From assembly GCF_001316245.1 (NCBI RefSeq), contig NZ_BBDM01000005.1, forward strand, positions 83,219 to 147,218: a stretch of 64,000 bases of DNA, in the 5' to 3' direction. The stretch is from Vulcanisaeta sp. JCM 14467 (lineage in GTDB: Archaea; Thermoproteota; Thermoprotei; Thermoproteales; Thermocladiaceae). Under the pieces are notes generated by a model. The model was not told the DNA's origin. It searched no databases and saw only the letters and a program-made list of their open reading frames with translations. Each line of letters starts with the position of its first letter. The first letter of the stretch is position 1. A program made the translations under genes and the position numbers. Shown here piece after piece: positions 1-64,000 of the stretch.

Positions 1-338
1 GGGCTTACCGATGTATTTACTGGCACGAATTCTGCAATGCTTATTGTGCCATTAGCATAAATAATACCATTAACCAGGAGGTAATCACCACCTATTAAGC
101 CAATACCTGTAAAGGCTTCATATTGTTGGCTCGGTATTTCTCTCGGTGATATCACTATGATCACACCACTGCTTGTCTGTGTACCATTAACTATTGACAC
201 ACTTATTACCGGCCAGTTAATGGTGCTGTAAAATCCAACATACCCACCACTGGCGGTGTTGGCCGATGAGAGGAAAATAGATAATAAGATGAGCGTAATT
301 ATCAAAGCCCTGAGTGCCAATGATTTATTAATTGGCAT
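1..338 (-). CDS. Secreted or membrane-anchored protein, C-terminal part outside window
   Basis: Reading the minus strand from an ATG at 338 gives an open frame to the window edge. The first 25 or so residues are a signal peptide or membrane anchor (MPINKSLALR, then a leucine/isoleucine-rich stretch, then SSANTASGG). The visible mature part is rich in Ser, Thr, Val, Ile and Asn, with several N-x-S/T sequons, as is usual for crenarchaeal surface proteins. It is divergent from the transglutaminase-like gene that starts at 357, so the 18-base gap must hold overlapping promoters. I do not recognise the family and no enzymatic motif is visible in the 112 residues available. Confidence 0.7.
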   Translation of the reverse strand, partial: MPINKSLALRALIITLILLSIFLSSANTASGGYVGFYSTINWPVISVSIVNGTQTSSGVIIVISPREIPSQQYEAFTGIGLIGGDYLLVNGIIYANGTISIAEFVPVNTSVS

Positions 339-356
339 TACTAATAACTTAGCAAT

Positions 357-1600
357 ATGAATTTGTTAATAATGCTTTTGTTACTTGAGCTATTGCAGGG
401 AAGCTCATCATACATACCCATCAATGCGTCAATAACCTACGTTGGCACTGCGTTCTCAATAAACGTTTATCAACTATCGTTTAAGAACATCACGGGATAC
501 CTAATGATTCCTCAGGGTGTTTATGAGGGTATCTTCGCAGGCCTGCTCAAGGTGGATAATTTAACACTTGTTGGTACTTACCACGGCTGATAAGCCACTT
601 AACATTCGTGGGCTACTTCACCCCCGTCATTGCCTACAAATCCGTGTCAATACCCACGGTATTATCCCTGGGTAATTACACGGGGTTTGAGGCCATCGTG
701 CAGTCCAAGGTGCCCATCTACCTGAGGTACCTTGTTTTTAATGAGTATAGTAATGGAACTTTAGTGAATACGCTATCCTTAGTAACTGTTAATGCGACGA
801 AACCACCATTAACCATATGGTTCGGTAATGGATATGACTGCGTCAGCTACTCTATAAATGCGACGTTTAGTGAACCTGTGAGGATCGTACCAATACCCGT
901 CATTGTTAACACCCAGCCGCCAATATCGTACTACGTGAGTAATGTATCAATAGTGAGTGTGCAACCGCAGACGGAGCTCATGCTCCTTGAGCCCGGGGAT
1001 ATTATCATTGCTGAATCGCCAATTGGTGAGGTGAACTACACGATGTATGTCTGTAGGAAGTTAATGAGCGTTGGTAGTCCAAATTTCTTATATGTAATTG
1101 AGTACTTGGGACCCACTGGTATCGTGATACCCGGCTCAATTATTACGAAGATATTTAGCATCGAGAAGCCTAGTAACCCAGTCGTGATAGTCAATAGGGT
1201 ATTCTATGTATTAGCCAGTGGTAAGTATGTCCTCTCTACATACTCCGTGGGCCCAGGCAATGTACTTAGTGCTGGTAAGGGCTCTATTATCGACTTTACT
1301 GCATTGGTTATGACAGTATTGAGGTACTACGGTATACCGACTAGGGCGGCCCTGGGATTTTATGGTGTTAGTGATGGTAATGGTGTTTACATATTTAATT
1401 CAGGAATGAGCATTTTATGGGATGAGGCATTTGTTAATGGCTGGGTTATGTTCACTCCATTCCCAATCTATGGTAAGCCATCAATGGGTATTAATATCTC
1501 GAGTGTTACATCCTCAGTAATAATTGGCTTGGTACTTGTTTTGCCCTGGGTAATGGGTTACCTGATATACGTGTTAATAAGCCATGTAAGGGCGCGCTGA
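357..1600 (+). CDS. Transglutaminase-like membrane-anchored surface protein, one frameshift
   Basis: An N-terminal hydrophobic signal sequence (from ATG 357) is followed by a beta-rich extracellular region with many N-x-S/T sites. Near residue 300 there is a transglutaminase-like core: YYGIPTRAALGFYG, then LWDEAFVNGWVMFTP, which resembles the RYxGIPARxVxGY and HAWxEVxxxGWxxxDP signatures. The last 25 residues form a membrane helix followed by HVRAR. The frame breaks at about 587, where one base appears missing (HG, then LISHLTFVGYF continues in the next frame), giving about 414 residues in total. The catalytic Cys/His/Asp triad is not fully recognisable, so the domain may be degenerate. Genes of this type sit with MoxR and DUF58 genes, exactly the neighbours found downstream. 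Confidence 0.72.
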
Positions 1601-1638
1601 ATTTAAAATAACGCCTGCTCATTATTGTTAGGTAATCA

Positions 1639-2585
1639 ATGATGAATACGTCAGATGCGAGACAAATCGTGGATAGGCTCCTGAGGGAGGTTTCCAAGTC
1701 CGTGATTGGTTATGAGCAGGAAGTTAAGCTACTCTTTGCATGCTTAATAGCAGGTGGGCATGCGCTGATCGAGGGTTACCCAGGGCTTGCCAAGACCACG
1801 CTGGTCAAGGCCTTCGCGAAGGCCCTTGGCCTATCCTTCAGCCGAGTCCAATTCACGCCAGACCTCCTGCCCAGCGACATAACTGGTTCGTTAATTTTCA
1901 ACCCAAAGATCGGCGACTTTGAGGTTAGATTTGGGCCCATATTCGCCAATATAGTCCTTGCTGATGAGGTTAATAGGGCTCCTCCTAAGGTTCAGTCTGC
2001 TCTTCTTGAGGCTATGCAGGAGGGCCAGGTAACAATTGGCGGTAAGTCCTACGAATTGCCCCGGCCGTTCATGATAATAGCAACCCAGAATCCTATTGAG
2101 CTTGAAGGCACATACCCACTACCCGAAGCACAACTCGACAGATTCATGATAAGAATAAAACTAGGATACCCAAGTGAGGATATTGAGCTTAAGATAGCCG
2201 AGGACATAGACCTTGGTAACGTGAATTCAATAAATACCGTCGTGAGTAAGGAGGAGATTGATACGCTCCAATCCCTGATGCGCTCGGTGTATGTTGATCG
2301 ATCAATAACTAGGTACATAGTGAACCTAATAAGGGCCACTAGGAACACCCGTGACGTTAAGCTCGGCGCAAGCCCAAGGGCTGCCAGGTACTTAGTAAGT
2401 TGGTTAGGGCTTGGGCGTTGCTTGATGGTAGGGATTACGTAATACCTGATGACGTGAAGTTACTGGCGCCGTACGTCTTGAATCATAGGGTTATAACTCT
2501 CGGCACTGATAGTACCGTATTAATTAGGCAGTTGCTCCAGCAGGTGCCGACACCCCTCATGGAGAGGGTGCTTCGTAGATCATGA
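1639..2585 (+). CDS. moxR: MoxR-family AAA+ ATPase, one frameshift
   Basis: This is a MoxR-type AAA+ ATPase, thought to act as a chaperone that matures or activates partner proteins, often with VWA or DUF58 proteins. Walker A is GYPGLAKTT near residue 46, Walker B is VLADEVNRAPPK near residue 110, sensor 1 is IATQNPIELEGTYPLPEAQ, and the C-terminal lid follows with SPRAARYLV. The frame breaks at about 2396 where an AAA run is one base short. The rest (VRAWALLDGRDYVIPDDVK) continues in the next frame to 2585, giving about 315 residues, the normal family length. The stop overlaps the ATG of the DUF58 gene (ATGA), so the two are translationally coupled. Confidence 0.93.
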
Positions 2586-3674
2586 TACGCACAATACCAA
2601 GCAATAGGTTATTGGTCATATACCTCATACTCTCTGGTATCACTTACATTGGGTTATTAACTAATAACTTGTTTGGCATGTACTTTGGATTAGTACTCTT
2701 CATCGTATTTACATCATATGTACTATCGTGGTATTTACTGGCGATAATAACGGCGTTGTATTCACAGCTAACCTTTGAGCAGGTCGGTGTGGAGCTCACG
2801 GTAGGCTCATCAGTAATAATTAATGCAAGGATTTCGTCAAAAATACCAATGCGGTGGGAGATAACCCTTAACCTTGTTCATTCACCCCACATACAATCTG
2901 ATACGTTGAGGGTTAGAATTAATGATGAGTTTACAATTAAATTAACGGGTAGGTGGATTGGGTATGCCAGGATCATTGGCGGAATAATGGAGTTAAGGGA
3001 TTCACTAGGGCTTTTGACAATTCAGAGATTACTTACCTGCAATGGTGTTAGCGTCACCATAATGCCAAGACAGTCCATTGGCGCTATTGGTAAGGTGGGC
3101 ATTGGAGGTTACACAGAGCGTGGGTTATCAATGGAGGGTAGGCTGGGCGATTTTAAGTCGTTATCTATATATGATTACGAGAGATCCGCATCATCAATAC
3201 ACTGGTTAACGAGCGCGAGAGTTGGTGAATTAATGATGATTAATAGGGGCGACTACGGTTCATGCCCAGTATTCGTATTAAACGTATCGTCAAGAATGTT
3301 AATGCCGCGGGATGGTGAAAGACCAATTGATGAGCCCTACAGGCAATAAGCGATTCATCCCAGTACTGTGGTGAGGTTAGGGTCATACTTATACGTAGGG
3401 ACTACGTTAGGGAGAAGGTAGTGGGTAAAGGCGATATTCCTTACCTGGAGCGTGAAGTAAGGATTAGCGTACTTAGGAGCTTGGCGAGGATAATACGTTG
3501 ATTAATTTACCAGCGTATTTTCGTAAGTACTTTAACGAGGACGAATTACTTGACGTAGCCTATATTAAGGTGCCCATAAATGATGAACCATCAATTGACG
3601 ACGTAAATAGGTTAATCAACACCATAGGCAATAATAGGGCTGTTTTGTTAGGTCTTGAGGTGAGTAATGGTTGA
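2582..3674 (+). CDS. DUF58 (VWA-like) membrane protein, two frameshifts
   Basis: The N-terminus has two membrane helices (residues 10-60), followed by a beta-sandwich-like region and then GRLGDFKSLSIYDYERSAS, which corresponds to the conserved DUF58 motif around the reduced VWA core. The frame breaks at about 3342 (GGG reduced to GG) and again at about 3498 (TTT reduced to TT). The continuation reads SDSSQYCGEVRVILIRRDY and then LPAYFRKYFNEDELLDVAYI, ending at TGA 3672-3674. Total length is about 365 residues. DUF58 proteins are the usual partners of MoxR ATPases, and the gene overlaps moxR upstream and the membrane protein gene downstream. Confidence 0.85.
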
Positions 3675-4245: not shown

Positions 4246-5409
4246 ATGCCGGATCCCTTCCTAACGGAGGAGCACCAGCTCATTAGGAGCAGCGTGAAGG
4301 AGTTCGCCGAGAGGTACATAGCGCCCATAGCCAGGAAAATGGATCTAGAGGATTACTACCCAAGGGACCTAATTAAGGAGCTCGCAAAGCAGGGCTTCCT
4401 AACACCATCAGCCCCACCCGAGTACGGTGGTCCAGGCATTGACCTCAGAGGCAGCGTGGTTGTTGTTGAGGAGTTAAGCCGATACAGCCCAACCCTCGGT
4501 TTTATTACCGAGATCGTGAATGACAACATAGTCTATGCCCTGCTTAAGTACGGCAATAATAGGCAGAAGGAGGAGATACTACCGAAGATCGCCAGTGGTG
4601 AGTGGGTTGCATCGTATGCCTTGACCGAGCCCTGCTGCGGCACCGACGCAGCTGCCATTGAGACGCGTGCTGAGAGGAGGGGCGGTGAGTGGGTTATCAA
4701 CGGCAGGAAGATCTGGATTACCCAGGGAGCCTACGCTGACATCTACCTGCTCTTCGCCAGGACTGGTCCTAAGGATGCTAGGCATAAGGCAATAACGGCA
4801 TTCCTCGTGAAAAGGAGTGCCTGTATTGAGGTTAGTAAGTTGGAGATGATGGGTATGAGAGGTGCAGGTGAGGCTGAGGTCAAGTTCAATGATTGTGTTG
4901 TAAGTGATGACGACGTAGTAGGTAAGGTTAATGAGGGCTTCAAAATAGCCATGGTTACGCTCGACTTAGCTAGGATTGGCATATCAGGCGTTGCCGTGGG
5001 CCTATCCCAGGGAGTCCTTGACGAGGCGTTGGAGTGGGCTAAGACGAGGACCGCATTTGGCAAGCCACTAATTGATTGGGAGTGGATTCAATTCCAGTTA
5101 GCAGACATGAAGACTAAGCTCGAGATTGGCAGAACAATAACATACAAGGCCGCCTGGCTCTACGACAATAAGGACCCATCATTCGTACTATACTCCTCAA
5201 TAGCCAAGTTATACACGGCCCAGATGGCGGTTGAGATAGCGAGGGATGGTGTACAAATACTTGGTGGATTTGGATACTCAAAGGAGAGTTTCTCAGAGAG
5301 GGCTTACCGTGATGCCAAGGTCCTTGAGATTGCAGAGGGTACGAACGAGGCCCAGAGGATAGTGATCCATAGAATATTAACAAGGGGACTACCGGAGGTA
5401 GAACTATGA
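4246..5409 (+). CDS. Acyl-CoA dehydrogenase
   Basis: FAD enzyme that introduces a double bond at C2-C3 of acyl-CoA. The 387 residues match the normal family length. The N-terminal helical domain begins EEHQLIRSSVKEFAERYIAP. The middle beta domain carries YALTEPCCGTDAAAIETRAE (flavin-binding segment) and WITQGAYADIYLLFARTG. The C-terminal helical domain contains RTAFGKPLIDW, LGGFGYSKE and IAEGTNEAQRIVI with the conserved EGTNE. The double Cys in EPCCGTD (normally EPxAGSD) is shared with the downstream copy and is unusual. The gene overlaps the next one by ATGA. It probably acts with the acyl-CoA synthetase (40.5 kb) and thiolase (37.6 kb) in fatty or branched acid turnover; the substrate cannot be read from sequence. 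Confidence 0.95.
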   Translation: MPDPFLTEEHQLIRSSVKEFAERYIAPIARKMDLEDYYPRDLIKELAKQGFLTPSAPPEYGGPGIDLRGSVVVVEELSRYSPTLGFITEIVNDNIVYALLKYGNNRQKEEILPKIASGEWVASYALTEPCCGTDAAAIETRAERRGGEWVINGRKIWITQGAYADIYLLFARTGPKDARHKAITAFLVKRSACIEVSKLEMMGMRGAGEAEVKFNDCVVSDDDVVGKVNEGFKIAMVTLDLARIGISGVAVGLSQGVLDEALEWAKTRTAFGKPLIDWEWIQFQLADMKTKLEIGRTITYKAAWLYDNKDPSFVLYSSIAKLYTAQMAVEIARDGVQILGGFGYSKESFSERAYRDAKVLEIAEGTNEAQRIVIHRILTRGLPEVEL

Positions 5410-7830: not shown

Positions 7831-8901
7831 ATGAGGCTTGCCCGTGAGTTCGGTGTTCAATTAATAACGGATAACGAAATCAACACATTGCAGAGATTAA
7901 CGGGTGAGGTTCATTACCTGATAAGGAGGGGTTTCTTCTATGCACATAGGGACCTGCAATCAATCCTGAATAGGCAGAAAAACGGCCTAAGGTGGGCCTT
8001 ATACAATGGTAGGGGTCCAAGCGCGGATCTACACATTGGTCACCTGGTTCCCTGGATGCTCAGTAAGTGGTTTGTGGATAAGTTCCATGTTGATTACTTC
8101 TTCGAGTTGACAGATGACGAGAAGTTCCTGGTCAAGGAGGGGTACACCCTGGAACAAACGAATAGGTACGCCTATGAGAACGCCCTGGACCTAATAGCCC
8201 TGGGCTTCACACCTGATAAGCTACACATAATCATTGACAGTGAGGACATTAAGTACCTATACAAAATAGCCGTCAGGGTTGGGAAGAAATTGACACTGTC
8301 AACCGTCAAGCACACCTTCGGCTTCACAGACTCAACAAACGTCGGTGCAGCCTTCTTCCCAACGCTCGAGATATCCGTGGCCTTCCTACCAACCGAGCTC
8401 TACGGTGAGCAGGTACCCGTGCTAATACCAACGGCAATAGACCAAGACCCATACTTCAGGCTGGCTAGGGATATCGCGGATGAGTTGGGGTATCCCAAGC
8501 CATCCACGATATATAGCAAGTTCATACCAGGACTAACGGGTGAGGACAAAATGAGCGCCTCGAATCCGGACTCGGCAATCTACGTAACGGATAGCGAGAA
8601 GGATGTTAGGAGGAAGATAATGAACGCACTAACCGGCGGCCAACCCACGGCAGAGCTCCAGCGCAAATACGGTGGAGACCCAGACAACTGCGTGGTCTAT
8701 AAATACCACCTACTCTTCCAGGACAGCGACGAGAAGGTCAGGAAGATATACGAGGATTGCAAGGCAGGGAAACTACTCTGTGGTGAGTGCAAGATGATGC
8801 TCTTTGAGAGGATTAGGGAGTTCATGAAGGAGCACAATGAAAGGAGGGAAAAGGCTAAGGACGTGATTGAGCAATACAGATTATCGGTGAAGTTCAGGTA
8901 A
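7831..8901 (+). CDS. trpS: Tryptophanyl-tRNA synthetase, N-terminus frameshifted
   Basis: Class I aminoacyl-tRNA synthetase that charges tRNA-Trp. The HIGH-type motif is SADLHIGHLVPW, the KMSKS-type motif is EDKMSASNPD, and the Trp-site region ELTDDEKFL and archaeal C-terminus CKMMLFERI are present. ATG 7831 is the first start in the intact frame, but coding sequence continues upstream: with one base restored at about 7803 the reading is EFTVTPWEVKGKVDY, the conserved archaeal TrpS N-terminus. The true start is probably near 7767-7785, about 25 bases after a TATA-like element at 7736-7746. An essential gene with a frame break is strong evidence that breaks in this sequence are errors. Confidence 0.95.
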   Translation: MRLAREFGVQLITDNEINTLQRLTGEVHYLIRRGFFYAHRDLQSILNRQKNGLRWALYNGRGPSADLHIGHLVPWMLSKWFVDKFHVDYFFELTDDEKFLVKEGYTLEQTNRYAYENALDLIALGFTPDKLHIIIDSEDIKYLYKIAVRVGKKLTLSTVKHTFGFTDSTNVGAAFFPTLEISVAFLPTELYGEQVPVLIPTAIDQDPYFRLARDIADELGYPKPSTIYSKFIPGLTGEDKMSASNPDSAIYVTDSEKDVRRKIMNALTGGQPTAELQRKYGGDPDNCVVYKYHLLFQDSDEKVRKIYEDCKAGKLLCGECKMMLFERIREFMKEHNERREKAKDVIEQYRLSVKFR

Positions 8902-9994: not shown

Positions 9995-11211
9995 TTAATC
10001 ATGGCCTGAGCCAGTTGTCTGCCCTGTCGTTTGTTGGCTGGCCTGTGATGTTAGGAATTGTATGTACTGGAGCCTATTCTTCTCATACTCATCGACGGGT
10101 ATGGGCTTAAGCTTCGAAAGTATCTGCGGTAGGGTCGTGTACTCCATCTCCTCAGGTGGCAGCCTATGCGGCATTACTGGCCCATCCTCCTTATGTAATC
10201 AGTTATTTGGGCAGCCAACTGCCTACTATAGTCGAAGGCTGGGTCATCAAATAGGTCGACAGGTCCCTCCAGGTAACCATCATGTAATTGGAAGCCCAGG
10301 GCAATGACCTTCGGCGGTCCGTCAAACCTAGTCATCTTCGGGCCAAGGGCTATCCTCTTCTCCATGTCAATGCTTATCATCTTTGCCGGCATTAATGGAC
10401 CCACATGACTACCCCTCATCCAACCCTCAACCAAGTGCGGGTATGCGAATGCCTCGAGTATCTCACCAACGGCTGGTAAGCCGTGCTGCGCCCTAACCAT
10501 GGCCACTGGGTCGTCCTTACCAACATAGCGGCCGGCAATTAGGTTCAGCCTCTCGACACTCGTGACGGAGGCCTGTGTTAGGTCGGACCTCCTGTAGATC
10601 CTCCTTATTATGTACCTGCCCGGCGTACCTATTAGGCCTAATATGTCGTAGCTATTCTCCGGCGCATCGAGTAGGTAAACCTTGCCCTCATAAACATCGA
10701 GGATCTCAAACCTAAAGCCCTGGTGCATTGATGGATCAATAACCAAGCCAGCCGTGTTAAATGGATCAGCAAATATCCTATAGAATGGCAAATTGAAGGC
10801 ACCCGGCTCAGTCTTATCAGCAGCAAAAACAACCAAGGGCTCACTAGGCCTCTCCTCAAACTCCATCTCAGCGACCTGGGGACCAAGACCCCTAATATTA
10901 CCGCTGAACGTATCCTTGAGTAGGTCCTGACCAGCGCCGTAGAGCTTAACCTTCTTCGCTATGTTCTCCGTAGCCTCCTTAAATATTGACCAGGCAAGAC
11001 CATGAATGTCAGGATTGTTCTCACCCTTCGTGTGCGTCATGAGCAATGACATGTCATCGCCAGCATTATACACGAAGTAATCAATTATCAAGCCCCTCTT
11101 CTGCTCCTCCCTAAGTCTCTCAGCCGCAAACTCAAGTATCTTAGGATGTACCCAGGCATGCCCAGGTAAGCCTCCTATGTCTGCCTTTATTATCGAGACC
11201 GTGACCTTCAT
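9995..11211 (-). CDS. fbp: Fructose-1,6-bisphosphate aldolase/phosphatase, one frameshift
   Basis: Bifunctional archaeal enzyme that condenses dihydroxyacetone phosphate with glyceraldehyde 3-phosphate and dephosphorylates the product to fructose 6-phosphate; the key gluconeogenic enzyme. Visible are VTVSIIKADIGGLPGHAW, VYNAGDDMSLLMTH (metal-binding Asp residues) and MTRFDGPPKVIALGFQL. The main frame stops at 10174 after YIRRMGQ, but with one base restored the family C-terminus follows (HGPVMPHRLPPEEMEYTTLP) and runs to TAA at 9995, giving about 405 residues. ATG 11211 is preferred over TTG 11214; a TATA-like stretch lies at about 11232-11248. Confidence 0.95.
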
Positions 11212-11324
11212 CAACAGTATTTTTAAATCGATGTATTAATATTTTACCCTTATAACATTTTCAATACTAATAATCATTTATCAGGGTAAAATGAGTATAA
11301 AGAATATTAACTTATTGACAAAGA

Positions 11325-12609: not shown

Positions 12610-12745
12610 TGCGAATTAACGCAAGTAAAGGACTTACTTAAAAACCTTATGACCACCTTAACCAGGGATTACACAATCATGAGGGATAGGCGTAATCACC
12701 GAGACCTGAGAAAGTAAAATAAAAACCTTGGTTAACTGCCTAGCC

Positions 12746-13325
12746 GTGGACGAGAACTGGATATACGTTAATGGTAGGTCCGTGAGGTACTTGGTTCATG
12801 GTGATGGTAAACCCATGGTCATGGTTCATGGGTTCAGCTTTAGTGCTGACGATTGGTTTAATTGCTGTGGTAATGACTTTCCTGGCTTCAGGATATATGC
12901 CGTGGATATGCCATACGGACCAAAGTCGAGGAGTGAGCACTTCACGCCGAGGAATGATGATGACTATGCAAACCACCTATACGCCGTGATAAGGGCATTA
13001 AATATTGAGAATCCCATACTAATCGGTGCAAGCCTAGGTGGCGAGACAGTGCTTAGGTACCTGGCCCTTAACTACCCAGCAATTGCCGGCATCGTGGTTG
13101 GCCCCGTCAGTACCTTATATTAACCTGTCCAGGATAAGGGTGCCCGTAATGGGTATTTGGGGCAGTAATGACAGGGTCTCGGGTAGGGAGAACATGGAGG
13201 CCATGAGAAGGGCTGGCTTCAGGGTTGAGATTATCGAGGGTGCTGATCACCCTGCCTACCTCAGTAAGCCCGGGGAATTCGTGAGGTTGGTGCTTGATTT
13301 CCTTAGGTCAATTAACGTTATTTAG
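12746..13325 (+). CDS. Alpha/beta hydrolase, one frameshift
   Basis: Alpha/beta-hydrolase fold protein, about 193 residues after joining. Order of motifs: VMVHGFSFSADDW (oxyanion region), LIGASLGGETVLRYLA (nucleophile Ser in GxSxG), IWGSNDRVSG (Asp) and EGADHPAYL (His). The first frame ends at 13123; with one base added near 13112 the reading continues PYINLSRIRVPVMGI to 13325. The start is uncertain: GTG 12746 (VDENWIYVNG) seems best, TTG 12728 is possible. An esterase or carboxylesterase role is likely; the substrate is unknown. Confidence 0.83.
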
Positions 13326-13414: not shown

Positions 13415-13932
13415 GTGGATAGGGTTGACCTGGCGTATGTAGTTGGTGTTGTGCTTGGTAAGGAGGATATTGATGGCATTAGGGTTGCATACACCACATA
13501 CACGAGTACCCTGGGTAAGTGGGTTAGGGATCCTGAGGATGTTGTTCAGTACCTGGTAAGCATTGGTAAGGCGAAGGTCGTAAAGAGCGGTCAGGGTAGG
13601 AGCGTGATATTGACGGATAGGGAGATGATGAATAGGGTAAACAACCTATTAATGCCCAGGGAAGATGTTGACCCACTAACGCTGGTTGTTGAGGGCATTA
13701 GGAAGTTGGCAAACCCATTGTCCGGCTATGCCGACATTGGTGATGTGATTAAGTACATAGAGGGTAGGCTCAACATACCCACTAGGGAGGCTGAGGACTT
13801 CCTGGTCAAGGTGATTAAGTTCCACAGGGTAGGTTCGTGTTTGCCCACGGTGGTTCTAGGAGGTTGAAAATTGGTTCCTCATACTACGGCTTGATAAAGG
13901 TGGTGGGTGATGCAGAGACTCCTAGTTCCTAA
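13415..13932 (+). CDS. Winged-helix-like protein upstream of P-loop ATPase, one frameshift
   Basis: The product (VDRVDLAYVVGVVLGKEDID, start GTG 13415) is mostly helical and basic and looks like tandem winged-helix units. The first frame ends at 13867; a lost T in GGTTCG at about 13834 explains it, since the next frame reads FVFAHGGSRRLKIGSSYYG to TAA at 13932, about 173 residues. It overlaps the following ATPase gene by about 23 bases, so the two are probably co-expressed and may form a DNA-binding and ATPase pair. Family not recognised. Confidence 0.6.
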
Positions 13933-14733
13933 CAGGGGTTCAAGGGTAAAGCTACTTGGGCCGTCATGGAGAACGGCCAGGGAGAAATTACTAGGCATGA
14001 TTCGTGGGGATTACCAATTAATTGCCGTAATCGGTAGGGCAGGCACTGGAAAGACAACGCTCCTCCTAAGCCTTGAGGACATGGACGATGGCATTCTCAT
14101 GTATGCAGACATGACGGAGGTCAGGGACAGGGACTTACCGGCAATCATGTCAACCGTCGTGGCGGACAACATGCACATCGTGAGGGAGATACAGGAAAGA
14201 CTGAGGAGGGCTGGCGTTAAAGGCATACTCAAGGCCTTCGCAAGGCAGGCCCTGACGAGGTCATCGAAAGCGCCAGGCTAAGGCCCATGGAGACACTCAA
14301 GTTACTCAACGATGCCGTGGAACTACTGGGCATGGCACCACTGGTGATAGGTATTGACGAGGGGCTACTAAGCCAGGACGACACTAGGGCCATGGACTTC
14401 ATAAACGCCCTACACGCATTCAGAAACAACATGCGGGCAATACCATCAACAAGGATAATAACCACCCTACTCCCAGACGTGGTAAACCTAATATCGAAAA
14501 TCGACACACCACTCTTCGACATACTAAGACTAGGCGCAATAACACTCCCAGACTACGTGACGAAGGAGGACTTGGAGGAGGTCATCCAGGAATACGGACT
14601 AGGCGAAGCAGAACTAAGCAAGATAGACGCCCTAGGCCCACTAACCATGAGGCAACTCATATGCCTAATAAATACGAAACTCGACACCACAAAATGCGGA
14701 ATAGACACAGCAGGAGAAATAACAATAGAATAA
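13910..14733 (+). CDS. P-loop ATPase (AAA/STAND-like), one frameshift
   Basis: About 275 residues. Walker A is AVIGRAGTGKTTLLL near residue 45, Walker B is APLVIGIDEGLLS near residue 145, and a sensor-like ITTLLPDVV follows. A frame break near 14255 separates the first part (to 14281) from the second; with one base restored the reading is DEVIESARLRPMETLKLL. The C-terminus (LGPLTMRQLICLINTKLD) is helical. No nuclease or transmembrane domain is seen. Start ATG 13910, or GTG 13907. Confidence 0.72.
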
Positions 14734-14755
14734 CTCATGATAATTTAATTTAATA

Positions 14756-14995
14756 TCATCGTAGTATCATTAGGGTTGTGCCTATCATTATGAAAACAAT
14801 ACCAGTGATTATGCTCGCCAAACCAGCTGCAGACACAAACAAACTATAAAATAAAGCACCATAAATTGAATTGCTGTAAGCCGCTATATATTGAACGAAC
14901 AACTGCGGAGTATAAAAGCCAAGAAAACCAAATACCAATAAAAGTACTCCAGAAACAATGAGGCCTAAATTGATTATCCTGACATGAATCATCAT
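14756..14995 (-). CDS. Small two-helix membrane protein
   Basis: A 79-residue protein with two long hydrophobic helices (residues 8-30 and 45-78) separated by a short polar loop. The start ATG 14995 lies downstream of a TATA-like stretch near 15010-15020. Function unknown; no family recognised. Confidence 0.55.
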   Translation of the reverse strand: MMIHVRIINLGLIVSGVLLLVFGFLGFYTPQLFVQYIAAYSNSIYGALFYSLFVSAAGLASIITGIVFIMIGTTLMILR

Positions 14996-15125
14996 TTATA
15001 TTTAATATGCATCTTTTTAAATCTTAATGTTTAATTAAAATTAAAATAATCAATGTAATGATACGAACATGTCATCAACGCAACGAAGAAACACCATAAA
15101 TTTAAAAAAGTATTATAATCTTCTT

Positions 15126-16096
15126 GTGGTTATTTTTTTATTATTTTAGTCTTATCAACAATAATAATTAGCATTTTTCTCATAATATTATTTATTAAGT
15201 ATTACAAGCAGGATATCTATGTTCTCTCAGGATTCTTTGTTAACAAGACGGCCTTAATTAACTACACATCGATAATGTCAAATAACGCATTAATGAATAG
15301 TATACTTATAAACTTCAGTAAATCATTAGCGTTTTACGTATATTTAGCATTTCTATTCACAATAACCTTTGTACTTTATATCATATATTTATATTTAATA
15401 AAGGAATTAATAAAGTATCAATTATTTAATTCAAATAATTCACTAAGAAAATGGATTTATGAATTCCATGTAAAATTATGGGGTTTAAATATCGTAGATA
15501 TTGTCTTCCTTTTTGAGTTCATCATTATTCCAATATCAAATATTATGATGATATTTATAGGTATTTTACCATTAATTGAAGAAATTGAAATTTTACCTAA
15601 GATATCTCCTGCAATATTTCCATCTATTGTTGAAATTATTCTTTTTGGTATAGATATTGCCTTATTAATTGTGATGACATTAGTTGAAACGAACAATAGA
15701 TCTACGGGTAATTGTAAATTGAAAGTTAAAGAATTCTTTGAAGAACATAGTTTATACGTATATGAGGATCATATAGCAAGGGTGTTAAGGATCGTCGTAA
15801 TAATTATGATATTAATTTCCATACCATTAAGTACGGGTCTAGTAATTCCTGCCCTCGTAAGTAAGGCAATACTTGATACGTATACATTTGTAGCATTCTT
15901 TATGCTAGCCATAACGTTAATTTTTAGCATAGCCATGTTTATTTTAGAAACACTGGCAGATTTAAAGATACATGTATTATGTAGCAAGATACGTGTAAAA
16001 TCATTGTTTGACCTTTTAATGTTTTTGGTCATCGTAATAGTTGTATTAATTGCAAGTGTAGTATCGCCCTTTATTTTACTTCTTATTCTAAGGTAA
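15126..16096 (+). CDS. AT-rich polytopic membrane protein, one frameshift near start
   Basis: The open frame from 15275 extends upstream in phase to about 15140. With one T added to the T7 run at 15131-15137 it joins a GTG at 15126 (VVIFFIILVLSTIIISIFL), about 25 bases after the TATA-like AAATTTAAAAAAGTATTATAA. The joined protein is about 323 residues with six or more membrane helices. Codon use is much more AT-rich than its neighbours (many AAT, ATT, TTA codons), which suggests recent acquisition. No family recognised. Confidence 0.6.
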
Positions 16097-39170: not shown

Positions 39171-39191
39171 ACCTCTTAAGAATTAAGACCC

Positions 39192-47880: not shown

Positions 47881-48019
47881 ACCTAAAACCTCGAGAACCA
47901 AGGAACGAACACGCAGAAACTTAAAAAAATTATCTCTAAAGGGCATGAGAAATAACAGCTCCTCCCCATCCTAATTCCGATAACGAAAACTAGATAAAGC
48001 AGTAAGTAATGACTATAGC

Positions 48020-48808
48020 ATGCCAAGGGAGGAATACATAAGGTATAGGGCGAGTGACGGAAGTGGGTTAACGGCCTTCCAAGTAACCCCGGACACGCCG
48101 TATAAGTCGGCCGTTATAGTGATACATGAAATATTCGGGATAACCGAGTTCATTAGGAACGTGGCAAGGCGGTTAGCCGGGTTAGGCTACCTCGCCGTGG
48201 CGCCAAACCTATACTCAAGGAGGGCTGATGTACTCAATGAGCAGAACATTGCCAATGTAATGAGGAGGTTTTGGTCACTACCGCCGGAGAAGAGGGCGGA
48301 TCCGAATGCAATCAATGAGTTAATGAGTACATTATCACCAACCGAGAGGGAGATAGTCCAGGAACTAGTCATTAATAGGGAGACGACCGAGGAGAGGATG
48401 GTGAGGGACATAGTTGATACGTACAATTACGTGAAGTCAACGTACAACGTCGAGAGGATGGGAATAATAGGCTTCTGCATGGGCGGTGGGTTGGCCTTTG
48501 AGGCATCGACTAGGGTCCCCTTCGATGCATCAGTCATTTACTACGGTAGGAACCCCAGGAATATAAGTGACGTAGCCAAAATAAGGGGCGCAATACTCAC
48601 CATATACGCAGGCGAGGACCCAATGATAAACCAGGGAATACCGGACCTAATGAGGGCGGTAATCACGTACAAGCCCAGGTTCGAGATGGCCTTCTACCCA
48701 GGCACGTACCACGCCTTCGCCACAGAGGGCGGGCCCGTGTATAATGAGGCTGCGGCTAGGGATGCGTGGGAGAGGACTGTGAACTTCTTCAGGAAGTACC
48801 TAGGGTGA
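48020..48808 (+). CDS. Dienelactone hydrolase family protein
   Basis: Alpha/beta hydrolase of the carboxymethylenebutenolidase type, 262 residues. VIVIHEIFGITEFIRNVA is the oxyanion segment (conserved Glu), GIIGFCMGGGLAFEA carries the nucleophile Cys, IYAGEDPMI the Asp and YPGTYHAFATEG the His. A central helical insert (residues 75-130) is longer than in the bacterial enzyme. Likely a cytosolic esterase/lactonase with an unknown substrate. Coupled by ATGA to a 45-codon gene. Confidence 0.92.
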   Translation: MPREEYIRYRASDGSGLTAFQVTPDTPYKSAVIVIHEIFGITEFIRNVARRLAGLGYLAVAPNLYSRRADVLNEQNIANVMRRFWSLPPEKRADPNAINELMSTLSPTEREIVQELVINRETTEERMVRDIVDTYNYVKSTYNVERMGIIGFCMGGGLAFEASTRVPFDASVIYYGRNPRNISDVAKIRGAILTIYAGEDPMINQGIPDLMRAVITYKPRFEMAFYPGTYHAFATEGGPVYNEAAARDAWERTVNFFRKYLG

Positions 48809-49124: not shown

Positions 49125-50246
49125 TCAAGTCACCACCTTACCTAGGCAATCATTCTCAATGCATTCCCTGACCTCCATCGCAATTCTCCTACCAAGGCTT
49201 ATGGGCCTACCGAAGTAGAGCTTACTGTACTGGCTACCAACGCCCATATACACGTTGGTGCCGCCGCCAATCCTGAAGGCCACGTCAAAGACCACGATGT
49301 CCAGGTCGGGTGTCACCATTAACTGTAGCGTGAAGGGCCCAATGACGCCAGGCGGCTCAACCTCCTCGGCAGCCTTTACGAACCTGTCGCCAACCTCGAA
49401 GAGCTTATTTAATTCGCTCTCCCTAATCGTGGCTGGTTCATGCCCTATCTCGATCATCTCAACATCGAAGTAATCCCTAATCTCGAGTTGTATGTCCGCA
49501 GTGAGCCTAAGCAAGCCGTCCAGGTTTGTCTGGATCCTCCTGTCAATACTCAGTATCTCCACCTCATCCCTAGCCACACTCCTGAAGTAATTAACATTGA
49601 AGTGGGCCCCGACCACTAACTCCTCGATGGATGCGTTACTCATGTCGGTCTCGTTAATGACACCATCACTCACGAGCCTCCTAAGCTTCCTCCAGAAGTC
49701 CTCCCTATCCACGGCAACGAAGAATCCCCTCTCAACCCTCTTCTTCGCATGTGGCATCTTGACCATGACCGGCCTATCAATGTCGTCAGGCGATGCATAG
49801 GTCCTCGGCCTCCTAATGCCAGCCCTGTCGAGTATTTTATAGTACGTCTTATCCCCAATCCTCTCCTCATACCTAAGCAGGTACCTATTACCGAATATGG
49901 GCACTGGGAACCTGCCCTCTATCGTGTCGTAACCCACGTAGACAGCGAAACTCCTATTAGGCACGAATACGGTATTCAATGACCTGAGCCTACCCACTAT
50001 GTCCTCCCTGGCAACGTCGGCATACCTATCGAGTATTAGCGGTATGTCCACAATCCTCCTGAACCTCAGGTACGTAGTCTCCCTACCCCTTTGGCAAACG
50101 GCTATTGTCCTGAATCCCTCATCCTTAGCTCCATCAAACACGTCGAGCGCCGAGTGGCTGGCGACGGCGGCTATGTGCATTGAGCCAACACTCAATTTAT
50201 AACCGCTCAGTAACTCCTCAACACTGTACTTGCCGCTAACCATCAT
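49125..50246 (-). CDS. purP: PurP, formate-dependent FAICAR synthetase (IMP biosynthesis)
   Basis: ATP-grasp ligase that formylates AICAR with formate and ATP in archaeal purine synthesis. Visible: [73 protein letters not shown] and [15 protein letters not shown] with [19 protein letters not shown] at the C-terminus. The 373 residues are intact. It follows a broken paralogue with an ATGA overlap. Confidence 0.95.
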
Positions 50247-51305
50247 GTGACCACCCTGTCCAGCTCATCCCTCTCAATTGCCATTTTTATCTCCCTGGCA
50301 ATCCTCCTACCATGCTCATGGGTTCATTCCAGTATAGGTATGAGTATGGGCTACCGCCTATGTATAGGTTCGTGCCTGCCACTATCCTGCCTGAGAACTC
50401 GAAAATCCTTATGTTGGTCTCGTCATCAATGACACCCTCCAGTGAGAAGGGCCCTATGACACCTGGCGGTAGGCTCCTCCTTGTCTCCTCCACGAACTTA
50501 ATGCCGTAATCCAACACCTTGGGCAGTAGGCTCTCCCTCAGGACCAGGGGTAGGTTACCAACGACGACGAAGGTTGGTTTCAAGCCCACCTCAATGATTA
50601 CGTCTGGCGGTAACCTCCTTAGGCCGTCTATGTTGGTTTCATACCTAATGTCCGCACCCAGTATCTCAACCCTGCCCAGGATTGGGCTGTAGAAGTAATG
50701 GAAGTAGGTGGTGACGCCAATTAGGTACTCCTGTACAATAGCGTCCCTAGGCGATTTAATAAGCCCCTCCCTAACCCTCTCCTCAACGCCCTTAATAACC
50801 TCCTCACCACTCCTGGCTATGAAGTAGCCCCTACCACCCTTGGCACCAGGTAGCTTAACAATGACGGGTCCATGAACCTCATCACCGACGCGTACAGCCT
50901 CGGTATTGGTATACCAGCCCTCCTCAGCAATTCCATCTTAGCCCACTGATCACTCTCGACTCTGAAGAGGCCCCTGAGCCCGAAGATGGGTATTTCAATC
51001 CTCTCAGCACAATCAAGGCCCACGTACTCCACATAACTACCGTGCGGCACCAAAATGGTGTTTAGGGACTGGAGCTTACCAACCACGTCAGGGCTACACA
51101 ACTCCCTCCAGTTGTTTAGGATCACGAAGTCATCGATTAGGTGCCTAAACTGCTCATAGAACCAAAGCCTATCCCTAAGCACGATGGCTATCGTCCTGAA
51201 CCCCTCGAATTTCGCTCCATGGAATATCTGGAGCGATGAGTGGCTGGCCAGCGTTGCAATGCTCACCCTATCCAGGTCATACCTGGAAATAACCTCACTC
51301 ACCAA
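50243..51305 (-). CDS. Second PurP paralogue, two frameshifts
   Basis: Same family as its neighbour: [68 protein letters not shown] and [16 protein letters not shown]. Breaks near 50865 and 50310 are each one base; the C-terminus ends RVVT like the first copy. About 354 residues. Many crenarchaea carry two PurP paralogues and one is thought to have a different role (PurP-like). It overlaps the phosphoribosyltransferase gene upstream by about 10 bases. Confidence 0.9.
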
Positions 51306-55189: not shown

Positions 55190-56683
55190 CTAAACATAAC
55201 CAACCTCCGACAACCTATTCACGAGCCAGGACCAAACACCACGGCCCTTCTCGGAAAGCACAACTAGGTAGAAGAGGGCTACGGAGACTATCATCAGCAA
55301 TGCGGTGAAGGTGGCGCTTACGTAATTCAGTACCGTGCTTAATAAGCCGTAGTGAGTAACCTCCGCAGTAAGAGCTAGGAAATAGGGTGCCATGAATATG
55401 CCCAGGGATGCGAAGAGGAGTGCGAATATCAGTGTCCTCCTTAATGTAAAGACAACAGGTCTCTGGGCAATATTAAGCTCCCTACCTGCGGAATACCCAC
55501 GTAGGCCGCCAGTAACCAACTAAGTATAGGTGTAATGAGTATTGCGGCAATCAATGCCGGTGCAAGGTATATGGCTGGTCTAAAGTAAATGCCCTGTATG
55601 ATATAGGCAATTACCCAGGCAATAGGGTGATTGCTACAATTAATGTCCTAGCAAGCATCCTAAGCCTGAAGTACCGGGCTGGGTCTATGGACATGCTCAA
55701 CCAAAGTCTCTCACCGCTTATTGTGAACATTAATGGCATGAATAAGTATAGGTAAATGATAATGAAGGTCATTACCGCGAAATCCCCTTGCCAATTACCA
55801 AATTGATAAGGTGCGGCAAGAAATTCCATAAATACCTTGCTGAGGAACACGGTAATCACTAAATAGACAATGGCAGTCACGGTCGATAGGGGTACCAGGA
55901 CCTTAAGTATGTTAGTCCTCTCGCCGCGTATTATCAAGACCTTCGTAGACGTGAACCAAATGATCCCCCAGGGACTCCTTGGTAGGTGGGTTACGAGCGT
56001 ATCAACGTCACTTCTACGGAGTAATGGCGTTGAGACGTCCAACACCTCATATGCATTTGAGGCTAAATCTCTGATGCGTCTCCTCGGTATTGTGGCTACG
56101 ACAACGGCTGTTAGGGCTAGGGCATAGGCCACGTAGGTGGGGCTTGGATTGACAAAGCCGTAAATTGGAGATAGCCTGGGGCTTATAAAGCCTAGGATTA
56201 TTATCAAGAGCAGTGGTGAAATGTAGAGCAACCTAAGTGTTTGTGGAAGTACCAGGCATTGGCCGTAAATAGCGTGAAGAAGCTCGTGAGGAGTAATAGA
56301 ATCAGCACGTAATAGGCAGCATCAATACCGGGCCTTACAAGAGGTGCTGTGAATGTGACGAACGTGATTAGGTATATTAATCCATTAGCAATGGCCCTGG
56401 CAATGTAGTACTCCACTGGATCCATCTGGGTTGTGAAGACAAAGTCGATGGCAGACTTAACAAAGAAGCTCCTAGTGGAGACCATGGAAAGGGCCATTAG
56501 GAGGAGGACTAGTATGAATGAGCTTAATTCATAAAATACGCCATTAAGCACGGTCTCAGCATCATGCTTTATTAGGAGCGCCGCAATGGCTATATTGTAA
56601 GTCGCCATTGCAAGCCAAATTATGATGAACCACCTACTATATAATTGCTTAATCTCGAAGTAAATTATCTTTAGGAGTCTCAT
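55190..56683 (-). CDS. ABC-2 type permease, three frameshifts
   Basis: Large membrane protein of about 495 residues encoded directly after the ABC ATPase (ATGA overlap at 56680). The first part (MRLLKIIYFEIKQLYSRWFI) ends at 56204 in one frame; breaks near 56240, 55615 and 55510 are each one base. About ten to twelve helices are visible, with a soluble stretch between helices 5 and 6 (RRIRDLASNAYEVLDVST). It probably exports a lipid, peptide or drug with the partner ATPase. Confidence 0.75.
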
Positions 56684-60194: not shown

Positions 60195-60850
60195 TTATCC
60201 TCGGCACTCCTCACTAATCATATTAACCACAATCCTCATGGCTGTCTCAAAAACATCCTTATCAACAGACCCCAACCCAACCCTGACTCCATCATCCCTA
60301 CCGAAGTATTGCCCAGGTACTGTGAGGACATCCCTACTCAGTAACTTATTTGCAAATGAGCTTCCCGTGAGACCTTCACATTTAACCCTCATGTAGAGTA
60401 TGGGCATATACTCAACGTAACTAATACTCACGTAATCACCAACCTCACTAGTTAACCTCCTCATCGTATCAACATTAGGCATTATTACGCCCAAGTTCCT
60501 CTCCCTAACCCAACCCCTATTCCTCAGCAATATCGATGCATACCTAAGGTTAAGGTCAATAACCAGCGGGCTCACCAGGTCAATTATCCCATTAACCTCC
60601 CTAACCACCCTATCATCACCCACAACCCAACCAACCTTAACCTCACTCATAGTGTAGAATTTTGACGTGCTGAAGGTAAAGACCACATTCTCCAACGGTA
60701 AATCCCTCAGGTTATTCTCCACGAACTCCAGGAATATCGAATCAACCACGGCATAGGCACCCCTCCTCCTCAACTCATCACTCAACTCCCAAAGCAACTT
60801 CCTGCCAAGGAATATGCCAAATGGGTTGTTTGGATCCATAGGCTCATGGC
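60195..60850 (-). pseudogene. Aminotransferase class I/II, N-terminal half missing
   Basis: PLP-dependent fold type I aminotransferase remnant of about 215 codons. It begins exactly at EPMDPNNPFG, the conserved NPxNPTG block that normally lies near residue 160-170, then AYAVVDSIFLEF (Asp), TFSTSKFYTMSEVKVGWV (PLP Lys) and VLTVPGQYFGRDDGVRVGLG (Arg). The N-terminal domain is absent: the reading runs directly into the end of the PaREP2 element at 60851, and no matching coding sequence is present beyond the far end of the element at 63446. The gene was truncated by element insertion plus rearrangement. Confidence 0.85.
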
Positions 60851-62613
60851 GGGGTGATCCAGGGTGTGGGCTTACAGCATCCCTCTATGGGTATGAAACT
60901 CCTTAAAGGCCTCCTTTTTAACGCATTAATTATCGACTGCCTTGTTTTCTCGTATATTCCCCGTTCTCGGTACTCCTGGTATTTCATACAAAGCAATCTA
61001 ATAATCTTCTTCATTACCTCCTCATCACTGAGCTCTGATAGTCTTATCACCACGTAGTACCCCTTTTTCCTGCGCCTTAACCTTACCTTATAATCATTTT
61101 TAAGTTGCTTATAAATTTGCACCGCACGATCCTTCTCCACCTCCCTATGTTCTAGGCTAATTCCTGTCTTACTTATCCTGATAGAAAAGGCGATTCCATT
61201 AATATCTATTTGATATCTACCGCGAAAATGCATTTCAGCAATTGACATCAACCTTGCCCACTTTTCAATGGCTAAGGCACTAAGTAGGTCTTTTACCCTC
61301 TCCGGCAATGCATTAAGAACATCTCTTGCGAACCTCACTGCTTTAGCACCATTTATAGAAATTACGTACTTACCTCTATTCGAATATGGGCGAAGCCCCA
61401 ATCGCTCAGCAACCACGCTCCAAACCTTACCCTCCCCAAATACTAACGTTATAACTGGGTAAACATATTGACCACGATATCGCTGAAGCTTCACAGAGCC
61501 ATCCCCCAGGATACCGCCCAGCAATAGTATCTTTAGCTGTGTTAAGTCCATACTCAGTATTATGGATTTCAACACCGATGCAGGTAAATGCTTTATACTA
61601 CGTGCTTCCGGAACAACATTCCACTTTACCTTTGGTTCCTCTTTATTCAAGTCTACACCAATGATTCTTACGCTGCATGAACCATAATTTAATACCATCC
61701 ATAATAGTACTTGCCAATCATTTGCGGTTACCATACGTGCCCCTGCGGTACTCACACGTTTCGGCGCGCCATCAGCCAACTCCAATCCCATTTTCAATAG
61801 CGCCACAGCATCACCAACAAGTAATTTAGGCACATCTATAACGAGTCCCCCTAACCTTTCAAAAGTCATCATAACTATTACGCCACCATCAATCTCCTCA
61901 ATCATTAAATCTATATCGACCCCATTAATCACCACACTCAAACTCCTCTTACCCCTCATTATTACTGTCTTTCCACTCTTTAACGCCTCAATAATCATCC
62001 TTACCTCACCATTATGATTCATGAACCAATCCCTCACATACGCAATATACCTTTCAATCTCCTCCACAACCTTAACAAGCTCTGAAAAACCACTAGTCCT
62101 CAATCTCTCCCTAATGATAGACCACTCCTCCATCTCTTTCCTCCAGAGCTCATCAGCATTAAACCTCTCTAGTCTCCTAATAGCTTCATCAACTAACACT
62201 TTAATCCTCTCCTCCTCACCCAGGATTTGCGGTAAGACCCCAGGCCCTATCACCTCTCTACTATTACCGAGTACTTCAAGCGACTTAGTAACAGGGTCAT
62301 TATTGGCGCTAGGCAATGGTCCAGTAGGTGCGGCGTCCGCTTTTGGGCCCCCGGCCGGGTTCCCGACCGAGGTATTCTCGGTCGGTGGTACGGGAGCCCG
62401 AGCCCCAGACTCTGGGGCAGGATTAGGGGATTTTAGCTCGCCGTGGGACCCCACCGGTTCTTCCGAACCGGTGGAGATACCCGGCAACCCACGGCTCATC
62501 GCTAGGTCCATTTCCTCCCTTCTCCCGCCCATGGGGACCACCGAGAGGAGACGCCCCACCGGGGTCCTCCTCCCGGCAGGATCGCCAGGAGTCGCCCGGT
62601 GGGGCCTTACCAC
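60844..62613 (-). CDS. PaREP2-family protein with LAGLIDADG-like domain
   Basis: A 589-codon open frame. The N-terminal 90 residues are Pro/Gly/Arg-rich, encoded in GC-rich repeat sequence (start uncertain; ATG 62532 is possible). The middle is helical (EEERIKVLVDEAIRRLERF). From about residue 330 PaREP2b-like blocks appear (WQVLLWMVLNYGSCSVRI), then LKILLLGGILGDGSVKLQ near residue 366, a LAGLIDADG-type motif with catalytic-like acidic residue, and YVISINGAKAVRFARDVL, RISKTGISLEHREV. The last residues GCCKPTPWITPP come from the shared end repeat. PaREP2 genes are dispersed multicopy genes of Thermoproteales; a homing or mobility role is inference. Confidence 0.7.
   Translation of the reverse strand: MVRPHRATPGDPAGRRTPVGRLLSVVPMGGRREEMDLAMSRGLPGISTGSEEPVGSHGELKSPNPAPESGARAPVPPTENTSVGNPAGGPKADAAPTGPLPSANNDPVTKSLEVLGNSREVIGPGVLPQILGEEERIKVLVDEAIRRLERFNADELWRKEMEEWSIIRERLRTSGFSELVKVVEEIERYIAYVRDWFMNHNGEVRMIIEALKSGKTVIMRGKRSLSVVINGVDIDLMIEEIDGGVIVMMTFERLGGLVIDVPKLLVGDAVALLKMGLELADGAPKRVSTAGARMVTANDWQVLLWMVLNYGSCSVRIIGVDLNKEEPKVKWNVVPEARSIKHLPASVLKSIILSMDLTQLKILLLGGILGDGSVKLQRYRGQYVYPVITLVFGEGKVWSVVAERLGLRPYSNRGKYVISINGAKAVRFARDVLNALPERVKDLLSALAIEKWARLMSIAEMHFRGRYQIDINGIAFSIRISKTGISLEHREVEKDRAVQIYKQLKNDYKVRLRRRKKGYYVVIRLSELSDEEVMKKIIRLLCMKYQEYRERGIYEKTRQSIINALKRRPLRSFIPIEGCCKPTPWITPP
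60851..60883 (+). repeat. End repeat of PaREP2 element, left copy
   Basis: GGGGTGATCCAGGGTGTGGG and the following 13 bases to CATCCC (33 bases) are repeated in inverted orientation at 63413-63446. On the minus strand it encodes the C-terminus of the PaREP2 protein. Confidence 0.85.
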
Positions 62614-62994: not shown

Positions 62995-63240
62995 GATTCC
63001 CCATGCCCATCCCTCGGCCCCGACTCCCCGCCGTTTCCGCGGGATTCCGCTTGGGACGCGTCCTCCGCACCGCGGTCCCGCGGACGGCGCCCTCGGCTTT
63101 TCGGCCCTTCGGGCTAGGGACGCGTCTTCCTCACAGCCCATGCCTCATTCGCCGAGAGCCCCCCTAACCAGGGGAGCCTCGGCTTCCTGACCTTCTCGGC
63201 TCGCAAGGTGCGGGGGAGGAGGGGCGGGGAGGACGAACAA
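62995..63240. other. Very GC-rich block with direct repeats, no gene assigned
   Basis: About 245 bases of well over 60 percent GC in a moderate-GC genome. It contains a 22-base direct repeat with three mismatches (GCTTGGGACGCGTCCTCCGC from 63049; GCTAGGGACGCGTCTTCCTC from 63113) and several short GC palindromes (CCGCGGTCCCGCGG near 63069). No convincing protein frame is seen on either strand, and I found no match to the core motifs of rRNA, SRP RNA or RNase P RNA that I could check by eye. It may be a structured RNA or PaREP2-linked repeat DNA. Confidence 0.45.
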
Positions 63241-63412
63241 GGGGTTTGAGGGAGGGAGTGGGGCCGAGGAAGGGCAGGGAAAGAGGTGGCTTGGTATCTT
63301 AATGGTTAGGTGGCTTGAGCGTTGTTATTATCGGTATCGTCATTACCATTAAGGTATTGACTGCATGCGCAGTCAATGAGCTTTTCGTCGCCTGAGTCAG
63401 CGCACTACCCAC

Positions 63413-63446
63413 GGGATGCTGTAAGCCCACACCCTGGATCATCCCC
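63413..63446 (-). repeat. End repeat of PaREP2 element, right copy
   Basis: Inverted copy of 60851-60883 with one extra base (GGGGATGATCC against GGGGTGATCC on the element-outward strand). All other 33 positions are identical. Confidence 0.85.
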
Positions 63447-63675
63447 AACCTTCCGCCCGGGCTGTTCCCGGGTGGTTTGGTTGGGGACTCATCGCCTAGA
63501 TCTGGTCAACCTCCCAAAATAACTAAGTAGTTTATATAGGCTTCCCGAAATCGGAATTGAGGATTCACGGAGGGTTGATTTGAATGGTGATGGGGGATTG
63601 ATATGAGGAGGATGTGGGTGAAAAGAAAATGAAAAGATGGGAATTTTGATTTTGAATCATGGGCTAACTACTGCG

Positions 63676-64000
63676 TTATGTTTGGAAGTCTTGGTACATG
63701 CTACATGTTGTTCCTTGGTCATACATTGGTGTGTAAATCACGTTTGAATTCTCAGCAGTATTATCAACCAGCGAGCTTGGTATAGGTTCACGTTGGAGCA
63801 GAACTGGAATTCGCCAGTGCCAAAGGGGTTAAAGTACACGGTGGTGTAATTGGCTCCAGCCCAGACCACGTTGGACCTGTACCAACGATTCGTGTATTGG
63901 GATGGGATACTTATGCATTTGGAGTAAGTTTGACCATTAGTTGGTAGATACACATACTCACAAACCTGACTAATTAAGCCATTACTGCCAACGTCGTATT
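63676..64000 (-). CDS. C-terminal part of secreted Asn/Tyr-rich protein, one frameshift
   Basis: The minus-strand frame enters at the window edge (YDVGSNGLISQVCEYVYLP) and continues NGQTYSKCISIPSQYTNRW, VVWAGANYTTVYFNPFG. A break near 63777 joins SSLVDNTAENSNVIYTPM and QGTTCSMYQDFQT, ending at TAA 63676-63678. Tyr, Asn, Thr and paired Cys point to an extracellular protein; the family is not recognised. The N-terminus is outside the window. Confidence 0.6.

Follow-up and report, generated by a model that had tools for sequence, protein, structure and literature searches.

Introduction

High-frequency indels (HFIs) of the Ion Torrent Personal Genome Machine (PGM) occur, according to those parts of Bragg et al. 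(2013, PMC3623719) on which we draw, about once per 1000–2000 bp, the commonest being insertions of A/T or deletions of C/G, and 82 per cent of the strand-asymmetric ones fall in runs of two to three bases. Here we analyse broken reading frames in 64 kb of the draft genome of the archaeon Vulcanisaeta sp. JCM 14467 (Japan Collection of Microorganisms). This stretch, called the window below, covers positions 83219–147218 and thereby the end of a 147,218-base contig; the whole assembly has 2,443,876 bases in 25 contigs and is estimated to be 81.58% complete. The original prediction, made from the letters of the window, attributed its split genes to sequence errors rather than gene decay. Our comparison with related genomes supports this interpretation: the breaks are almost certainly consensus errors of the draft assembly, predicted to stem from PGM reads, and not a property of the DNA of the organism.

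The breaks resemble the HFIs described in the cited parts of PMC3623719 in their frequency of about one per kb, their mostly single-base size, the prevalence of C/G deletions with some A/T insertions, and their location in short runs. Effects on gene calls have a precedent in the bacterium Corynebacterium pseudotuberculosis Cp162, for which the portion of PMC10836205 consulted gives 67 frameshifted pseudogenes with Ion Torrent and 41 with Illumina and an optical map, far fewer frameshifts per genome than in the present case. The nearest documented draft is BBBK of V. souniana JCM 11219, a different species of the same genus from the same culture collection, which was made with PGM; PMC9872577 reports it together with a complete hybrid genome and a draft from Illumina reads. 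PGM reads and Newbler assembly are also named in the consulted portion of a JCM draft paper of 2014 (PMC4064037). A one-base split of an archaeal gene can have a different meaning, as in the programmed −1 frameshift of Saccharolobus solfataricus fucA1, for which the cited part of PMC8211752 describes a slippery A/T heptamer as well as experimental evidence; here, in contrast, G/C runs dominate, rRNA is affected and complete relatives are unbroken.

Genomes and alignments

The comparison set comprised 12 genomes of the genus, including that of JCM 14467. Complete references were V. distributa IC-017T (G007), G004, which we take to be V. moutnovskia, and V. souniana (G010), with the more divergent V. 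thermophila (G011) as the fourth reference. The other genomes were the drafts of JCM 16159 (G002), JCM 11216 (G003) and JCM 11217 (G008), here called sister drafts, and the metagenome bins G001, G005, G006 and G009, the last two fragmented. Reference genes from G007, G004 and G010 were aligned to each genome by frame-aware protein-to-DNA alignment. Fifty-two genes were selected and three removed as paralogue or spurious hits; the 49 examined amount to 43.3 coding kb, and about 17 kb of the window lie outside the selected genes. A clean set of 41 genes (35.6 kb in the window) was chosen as intact in all four references wherever present; the other eight include those for aCPSF1, whose start choice varies among relatives, and aldehyde dehydrogenase. 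All evidence is consensus sequence.

Frame breaks in the window and in related genomes

Frame-aware alignment revealed 42 frame changes in the 49 genes, with at least one event in 24 of them; 32 were of type −1, five −2, four +1 and one +2. Six events (12607, 48013, 52354, 52304, 52237 and 53815) were excluded as also present in complete relatives, situated at over-extended reference starts or lying in one doubtful open reading frame (ORF), which leaves 36, or about 0.83 per coding kb. The clean set holds 29 breaks (0.82 per kb) in 18 of its 41 genes, and the broken fraction is 10 of 18 among genes of at least 300 aa and 7 of 10 among those of at least 400 aa. In local nucleotide alignments, 26 of these 29 breaks are missing bases (21 of one base, five of two); the remainder are two extra bases in T6/T7 runs and one 5-nt tandem duplication. 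The broken genes of the window retain 52–96% protein identity to the references over the frame-aware alignments.

The original prediction had put the number of breaks at about 50, mostly missing bases. The second part is borne out; as to the first, the 36–42 events in 43.3 coding kb make that figure plausible when scaled to 64 kb. All seven coordinates that it named were reproduced within 17 nt (587 at 587, 2396 at 2384, 3342 at 3333, 3498 at 3481, 10185 at 10181, 13834 at 13826 and 47092 at 47099). That over half of the multi-domain genes are split is true of the longer genes and not of the clean set overall. Breaks were located in the genes for fructose-1,6-bisphosphate (FBP) aldolase/phosphatase, thiolase and aCPSF1, as predicted; trpS and the tRNA, likewise claimed to be damaged, are entire. 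The genes concerned are the following (positions in the window; those of breaks approximate).

335–1597, plus strand: transglutaminase-like gene; −1 at 587; unbroken homologues have about 400–420 aa, including one of 414 aa at 91% identity
1639–2582, plus strand: AAA/MoxR-type ATPase gene; −1 at 2384
2582–3668, plus strand: gene without Pfam match; −1 at 3333 and 3481
9998–11214, minus strand: FBP aldolase/phosphatase; −1 at 10181
12728–13324, plus strand: alpha/beta hydrolase gene; −2 at 13109
13415–13930, plus strand: gene without Pfam match; −1 at 13826
13907–14730, plus strand: gene without Pfam match; −1 at 14241
16965–18398, minus strand: MFS-type transporter gene; five breaks, at 17782, 17505, 17484, 17220 and 17054
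18474–19673, plus strand: sugar-acid dehydratase-like gene (enolase superfamily); −2 at 18508 and 18680, −1 at 18909 and 19043
20110–20928, minus strand: periplasmic-binding-protein-like gene; −1 at 20845
21149–22102, plus strand: gene with +1 at 21299, an additional base in a T7 run
22547–24136, plus strand: aldehyde dehydrogenase gene; −1 near 23568, 23726 and 23842; outside the clean set
30745–31618, plus strand: gene with +1 at 31421, an additional base in a T6 run
37552–38757, plus strand: thiolase-family gene; −1 at 37700, −2 at 38143
38762–39169, plus strand: OB-fold/zinc-ribbon gene beside the thiolase; −2 at 39054, with the same lesion in the JCM 11217 draft
39155–39661, minus strand: gene without Pfam match; −1 at 39354 and 39206
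40555–42312, minus strand: acyl-CoA synthetase (AMP-binding) gene; −1 at 41572 and 41075
43135–44004, minus strand: EamA transporter gene; −1 at 43482
44074–45954, plus strand: GH15-type gene; −1 at 44142, close to the start
45953–48091, minus strand: aCPSF1 (beta-CASP ribonuclease); internal −1 near 47099; outside the clean set
55193–56683, minus strand: gene with 52% identity to the reference; −1 near 56253, 55618 and 55484; outside the clean set
7831–8901, plus strand: trpS; not broken, 356 aa in one frame
16136–16234, minus strand: tRNA containing an inserted stretch; unbroken by comparison with three relatives

The three sister drafts are broken to a similar extent, with 50 raw events in 45 genes for JCM 11216, 50 in 46 for JCM 16159 and 42 in 45 for JCM 11217, and in the clean set 41, 40 and 31 breaks, respectively, each in 33–34 kb. 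The complete genomes have 6 raw events in 45 genes (G007, 38.5 kb), 3 in 47 (G004, 42.4 kb) and 3 in 30 (G010, 27.7 kb), counts that are biased low since these genomes are partly their own reference; V. thermophila has 3 in 20 genes. At other places, the complete genomes have a small number of private events, one example being a gene of 134 aa in G004, near 52.7 kb. Raw counts for the bins are 14 events in 21 genes (G001), 8 in 23 (G005), 3 in 14 (G009) and 1 in 10 (G006), and the last two have one event each in the clean set.

In the window, 34% of the sequence lies in stop-free frames of 300 codons or more; the figures are 35% for 400 kb of the same genome, 39% for JCM 16159 and 56–66% for the three complete genomes; the window is thus typical of its genome in this respect. 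A near-identical intact copy from another source was also sought, but the best non-self match (414 aa) is 91% identical and hence not the same sequence.

Ribosomal RNA and essential genes

The 16S rRNA gene of JCM 14467 has five one-base deletions, and its 23S rRNA gene four one-base deletions and one insertion, that are absent from the four references; of the nine deletions, eight affect runs that are identical in the references. The same count (16S, 23S) gives 1 and 0 for G007, 0 and 2 for G004, 2 and 1 for G010, 9 and 7 for V. thermophila, and 3 and 8 for the draft of JCM 16159. Two of the five 16S deletions recur in JCM 16159, and a 16S piece of JCM 11216 has two as well. The 16S sequence of V. 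distributa, 98.8% identical to that of JCM 14467, is without the deletions common to the drafts.

Both rpoB and the gene for elongation factor 2 (EF-2) are in three pieces in JCM 14467 and whole in the complete references. A single piece of rpoB exceeds the family cut-off in 8 of the 12 genomes, and the gene is split in exactly the four drafts. EF-2 exceeds it in 7 of the 12: it is split in JCM 14467, JCM 16159 and JCM 11217, matches only partially and without stops in the bins G006 and G009, and passes in JCM 11216 with two internal stops. The gene rpoA2 is intact in JCM 14467 and JCM 11217 and split in JCM 16159 and JCM 11216. At column 1804 of the rpoB alignment, the four drafts all lack one base that is present in each of seven other genomes, and the position could be taken for a site of conserved frameshifting.

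In the window itself, trpS (7831–8898) is a single 356-aa frame 97% identical to that of V. distributa; it is in the sister drafts JCM 16159, 11216 and 11217 that this gene is broken. The only tRNA found is 99 nt long, the same length as in G007, G004 and JCM 16159, from which it differs by substitutions and by no indel; its odd anticodon call is common to these three and reflects the inserted stretch.

Run-length changes

The lengths of runs were compared in the 41 clean genes and the rRNA of JCM 14467, with the count restricted to runs that two or more of the four references have in identical form and to changes no larger than two bases. Thirteen of 7,550 conserved runs had changed length; all 13 changes are deletions and 12 of them are in G/C. 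Not one of 5,464 conserved single bases was affected, against 13 of 2,086 longer runs, nine of these being two or three bases long and four of them four or five. No change was found among the 4,963–4,990 runs of each of the three complete genomes, and three among 4,023 in V. thermophila; the coding share of these reference counts is near zero by gene selection, the rRNA share not being so selected. Both coding sequence and rRNA of the JCM 14467 assembly lack a base mainly within G/C runs two to five bases long, and the sister drafts carry similar errors.

The distribution of longer runs is distorted as well, with far too many A/T runs of seven bases or more. A/T runs of 6, 7 and 8 bases number 19, 52 and 12 in 400 kb of JCM 14467, against 110, 3 and 0 in 600 kb of the three complete genomes; JCM 16159, with 8, 15 and 11 in 200 kb, has the same fingerprint as JCM 14467. 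The other two drafts differ: within the region of synteny, JCM 11216 has 72 G/C runs of four bases and 143 of seven, and JCM 11217 has 55 and 113, compared with 181–310 and 0 in the complete genomes. Many G/C runs of four are written there as seven and some of five as eight, and long G/C insertions interrupt the rRNA too. These +3 changes, which fall outside the run-length test, preserve the reading frame and would escape frameshift filters. The fingerprint sorts by pairs of drafts (JCM 14467 with JCM 16159, JCM 11216 with JCM 11217) and not by kinship, JCM 16159 and JCM 11216 being 95.3% identical in the clean genes despite their different fingerprints.

An A-G(n)-C context appeared enriched when the four drafts were pooled (17 of 33 deleted runs against 562 of 3,861 intact ones), but pooled sites are not independent, and in JCM 14467 alone it is not over-represented (3 of 12 against 172 of 1,222); we make no claim for it. 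By our own reading, all five −2 events may be seen as C runs preceded by A on one strand.

Origin of the frame breaks

The JCM 14467 assembly probably comes from the same collection project as the drafts of JCM 16159, 11216 and 11217. With flow-based sequencing, an indel present in most of the reads at a given site would be taken over by the assembler into the consensus and break the frame there. Several properties of the breaks agree with such an origin: the density in clean coding sequence (29 in 35.6 kb), the prevalence of G/C deletions (12 of 13 changed runs) alongside two single-base insertions in T runs, and the shortness of the changed runs (two or three bases in 9 of 13). Most HFIs in the cited parts of PMC3623719 are specific to one sequencing run, though their overlap exceeds the random level. 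For the coding breaks of the window, the sites in common with the three sister drafts number 1, 0 and 1, no more than expected by chance; certain rRNA and rpoB sites do recur, and the above-random overlap just mentioned agrees with a dependence of the shared draft sites on sequence context.

Several observations weigh against an origin from PGM errors. The rRNA indels of JCM 14467, 10 in about 4.6 kb, are denser than the published PGM rate. Among the sister drafts, 6–9 coding break sites are common to each pair, where 0.3–0.5 are expected. Three short or doubtful ORFs contain five in-frame stops, which are not run-length errors; nor is the 5-nt tandem duplication near 17220. Bins G001 and G005 are not clean either, with 8 breaks in 15.6 kb and 5 in 18.9 kb of the clean set, although a single doubtful gene accounts for nine of the 13. 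The cited parts of PMC3623719 place only 29% of all single-base HFIs in homopolymers, unlike the breaks described here, nearly all of which are in homopolymers and some of which recur across strains; the fit is for this reason limited to the strand-asymmetric subset. The published description, moreover, covers read-level frequency and asymmetry between forward and reverse reads, while the present breaks are known from the consensus. Finally, PGM as the platform of the JCM 14467 assembly is inferred from other records of the collection.

Another homopolymer-prone platform might have produced the same kind of damage. Both 454 and early nanopore sequencing make run-length errors. Data of the former type exist for the genus, the finished V. 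distributa reference having been made from 454 reads according to the consulted portion of PMC3035369. We nevertheless consider this source very improbable, because deletions of C/G in short runs (two to three bases), occurring about once per kb, resemble the PGM description in the cited parts of PMC3623719, and because a draft of a sister project is documented as PGM (PMC9872577).

Explanations in which the breaks are real are still less probable. Programmed frameshifting, or a widespread tolerated recoding in which ribosomes slip over the breaks, could appeal to the −1 frameshifting known in Archaea (PMC8211752, as far as the cited part goes), to the rpoB site at which all four drafts are broken and to the presence of an X-XXY-YYZ-like heptamer within 30 nt of 4 of the 29 breaks, compared with 6% of random coding positions (about 1.7 expected). 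Two of these four heptamers, however, are the inserted T runs themselves, and the breaks as a whole are not marked by an A/T slippery heptamer. The shift sites are not conserved: the references have no event in the 41 genes, which were selected in this way, and none in rpoB and EF-2, which were not. A true programmed frameshift was sought among the breaks of the window and, the six excluded events apart, none is common to a complete relative. Run-length counts are distorted genome-wide. Lesions of this kind are also present in 16S and 23S rRNA, which is not translated, so recoding fails as an explanation and is, in our view, extremely unlikely. True frameshift mutations in a degenerate genome deserve hardly any credence either. 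In their favour, the deposited sequence does contain the breaks, and these occur throughout the genome. Against it, the lesions are not confined to dispensable genes or relaxed sequence; they affect rpoB, EF-2, FBP aldolase/phosphatase and the rRNA of an organism that grew, the protein identity of the broken genes to the references is still 52–96%, and length changed in longer runs and in none of the conserved single bases. The rRNA lesions, the splits of rpoB and EF-2 and the dependence on run length and base thus favour sequence errors in the draft over decay of its genes.

Consequences for public Vulcanisaeta records

As far as biology is concerned, there is no feature here: the breaks are an ordinary artefact. 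Annotation of the JCM 14467 genome would yield false fragments, and the breaks are likely to depress its completeness estimate (81.6%); the estimates for the sister drafts are 63–67%. Recurrent error sites can also pass for conservation. Machine errors that depend on sequence and recur at identical conserved codons in different species are probably present in four or more of the public Vulcanisaeta drafts, two of which also have G/C runs of four bases rewritten in frame as seven. In comparative archaeal genomics, such errors together would mimic conserved frameshift sites, fissions of genes and insertions specific to a lineage. This analysis has two useful by-products: errors recur at conserved positions, and two of the public records contain the in-frame G4-to-G7 artefact. 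In the literature on Vulcanisaeta and frameshift, or Vulcanisaeta and JCM 14467, we found no report of frameshifts in the JCM 14467 assembly, and the claim is limited to that literature.

Other features of the window

The 5-nt tandem duplication in the MFS-type transporter gene occupies 17216–17225; unlike the other breaks, it could be a real mutation or an assembly error. Two adjacent purP-like genes (DUF1246/DUF1297) lie at 49125–51305, and only the N-terminal part of the second (fragment 50820–51305) is in frame, which makes a further break likely. The C-terminal half of an aminotransferase (60198–60839), outside the selected genes, likewise suggests further breaks. Beside it, a 33-nt inverted repeat (60851–60883 and 63413–63445, 97% complementary) encloses about 2.6 kb that may be a mobile element; a 29-base part of the repeat was found only at this locus among the 12 genomes of the genus. 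Beside the tRNA, a 1.7-kb stretch (about 14731–16466) contains a 273-aa ORF without Pfam match, and its alignable flanks are only about 220 nt apart in V. distributa.

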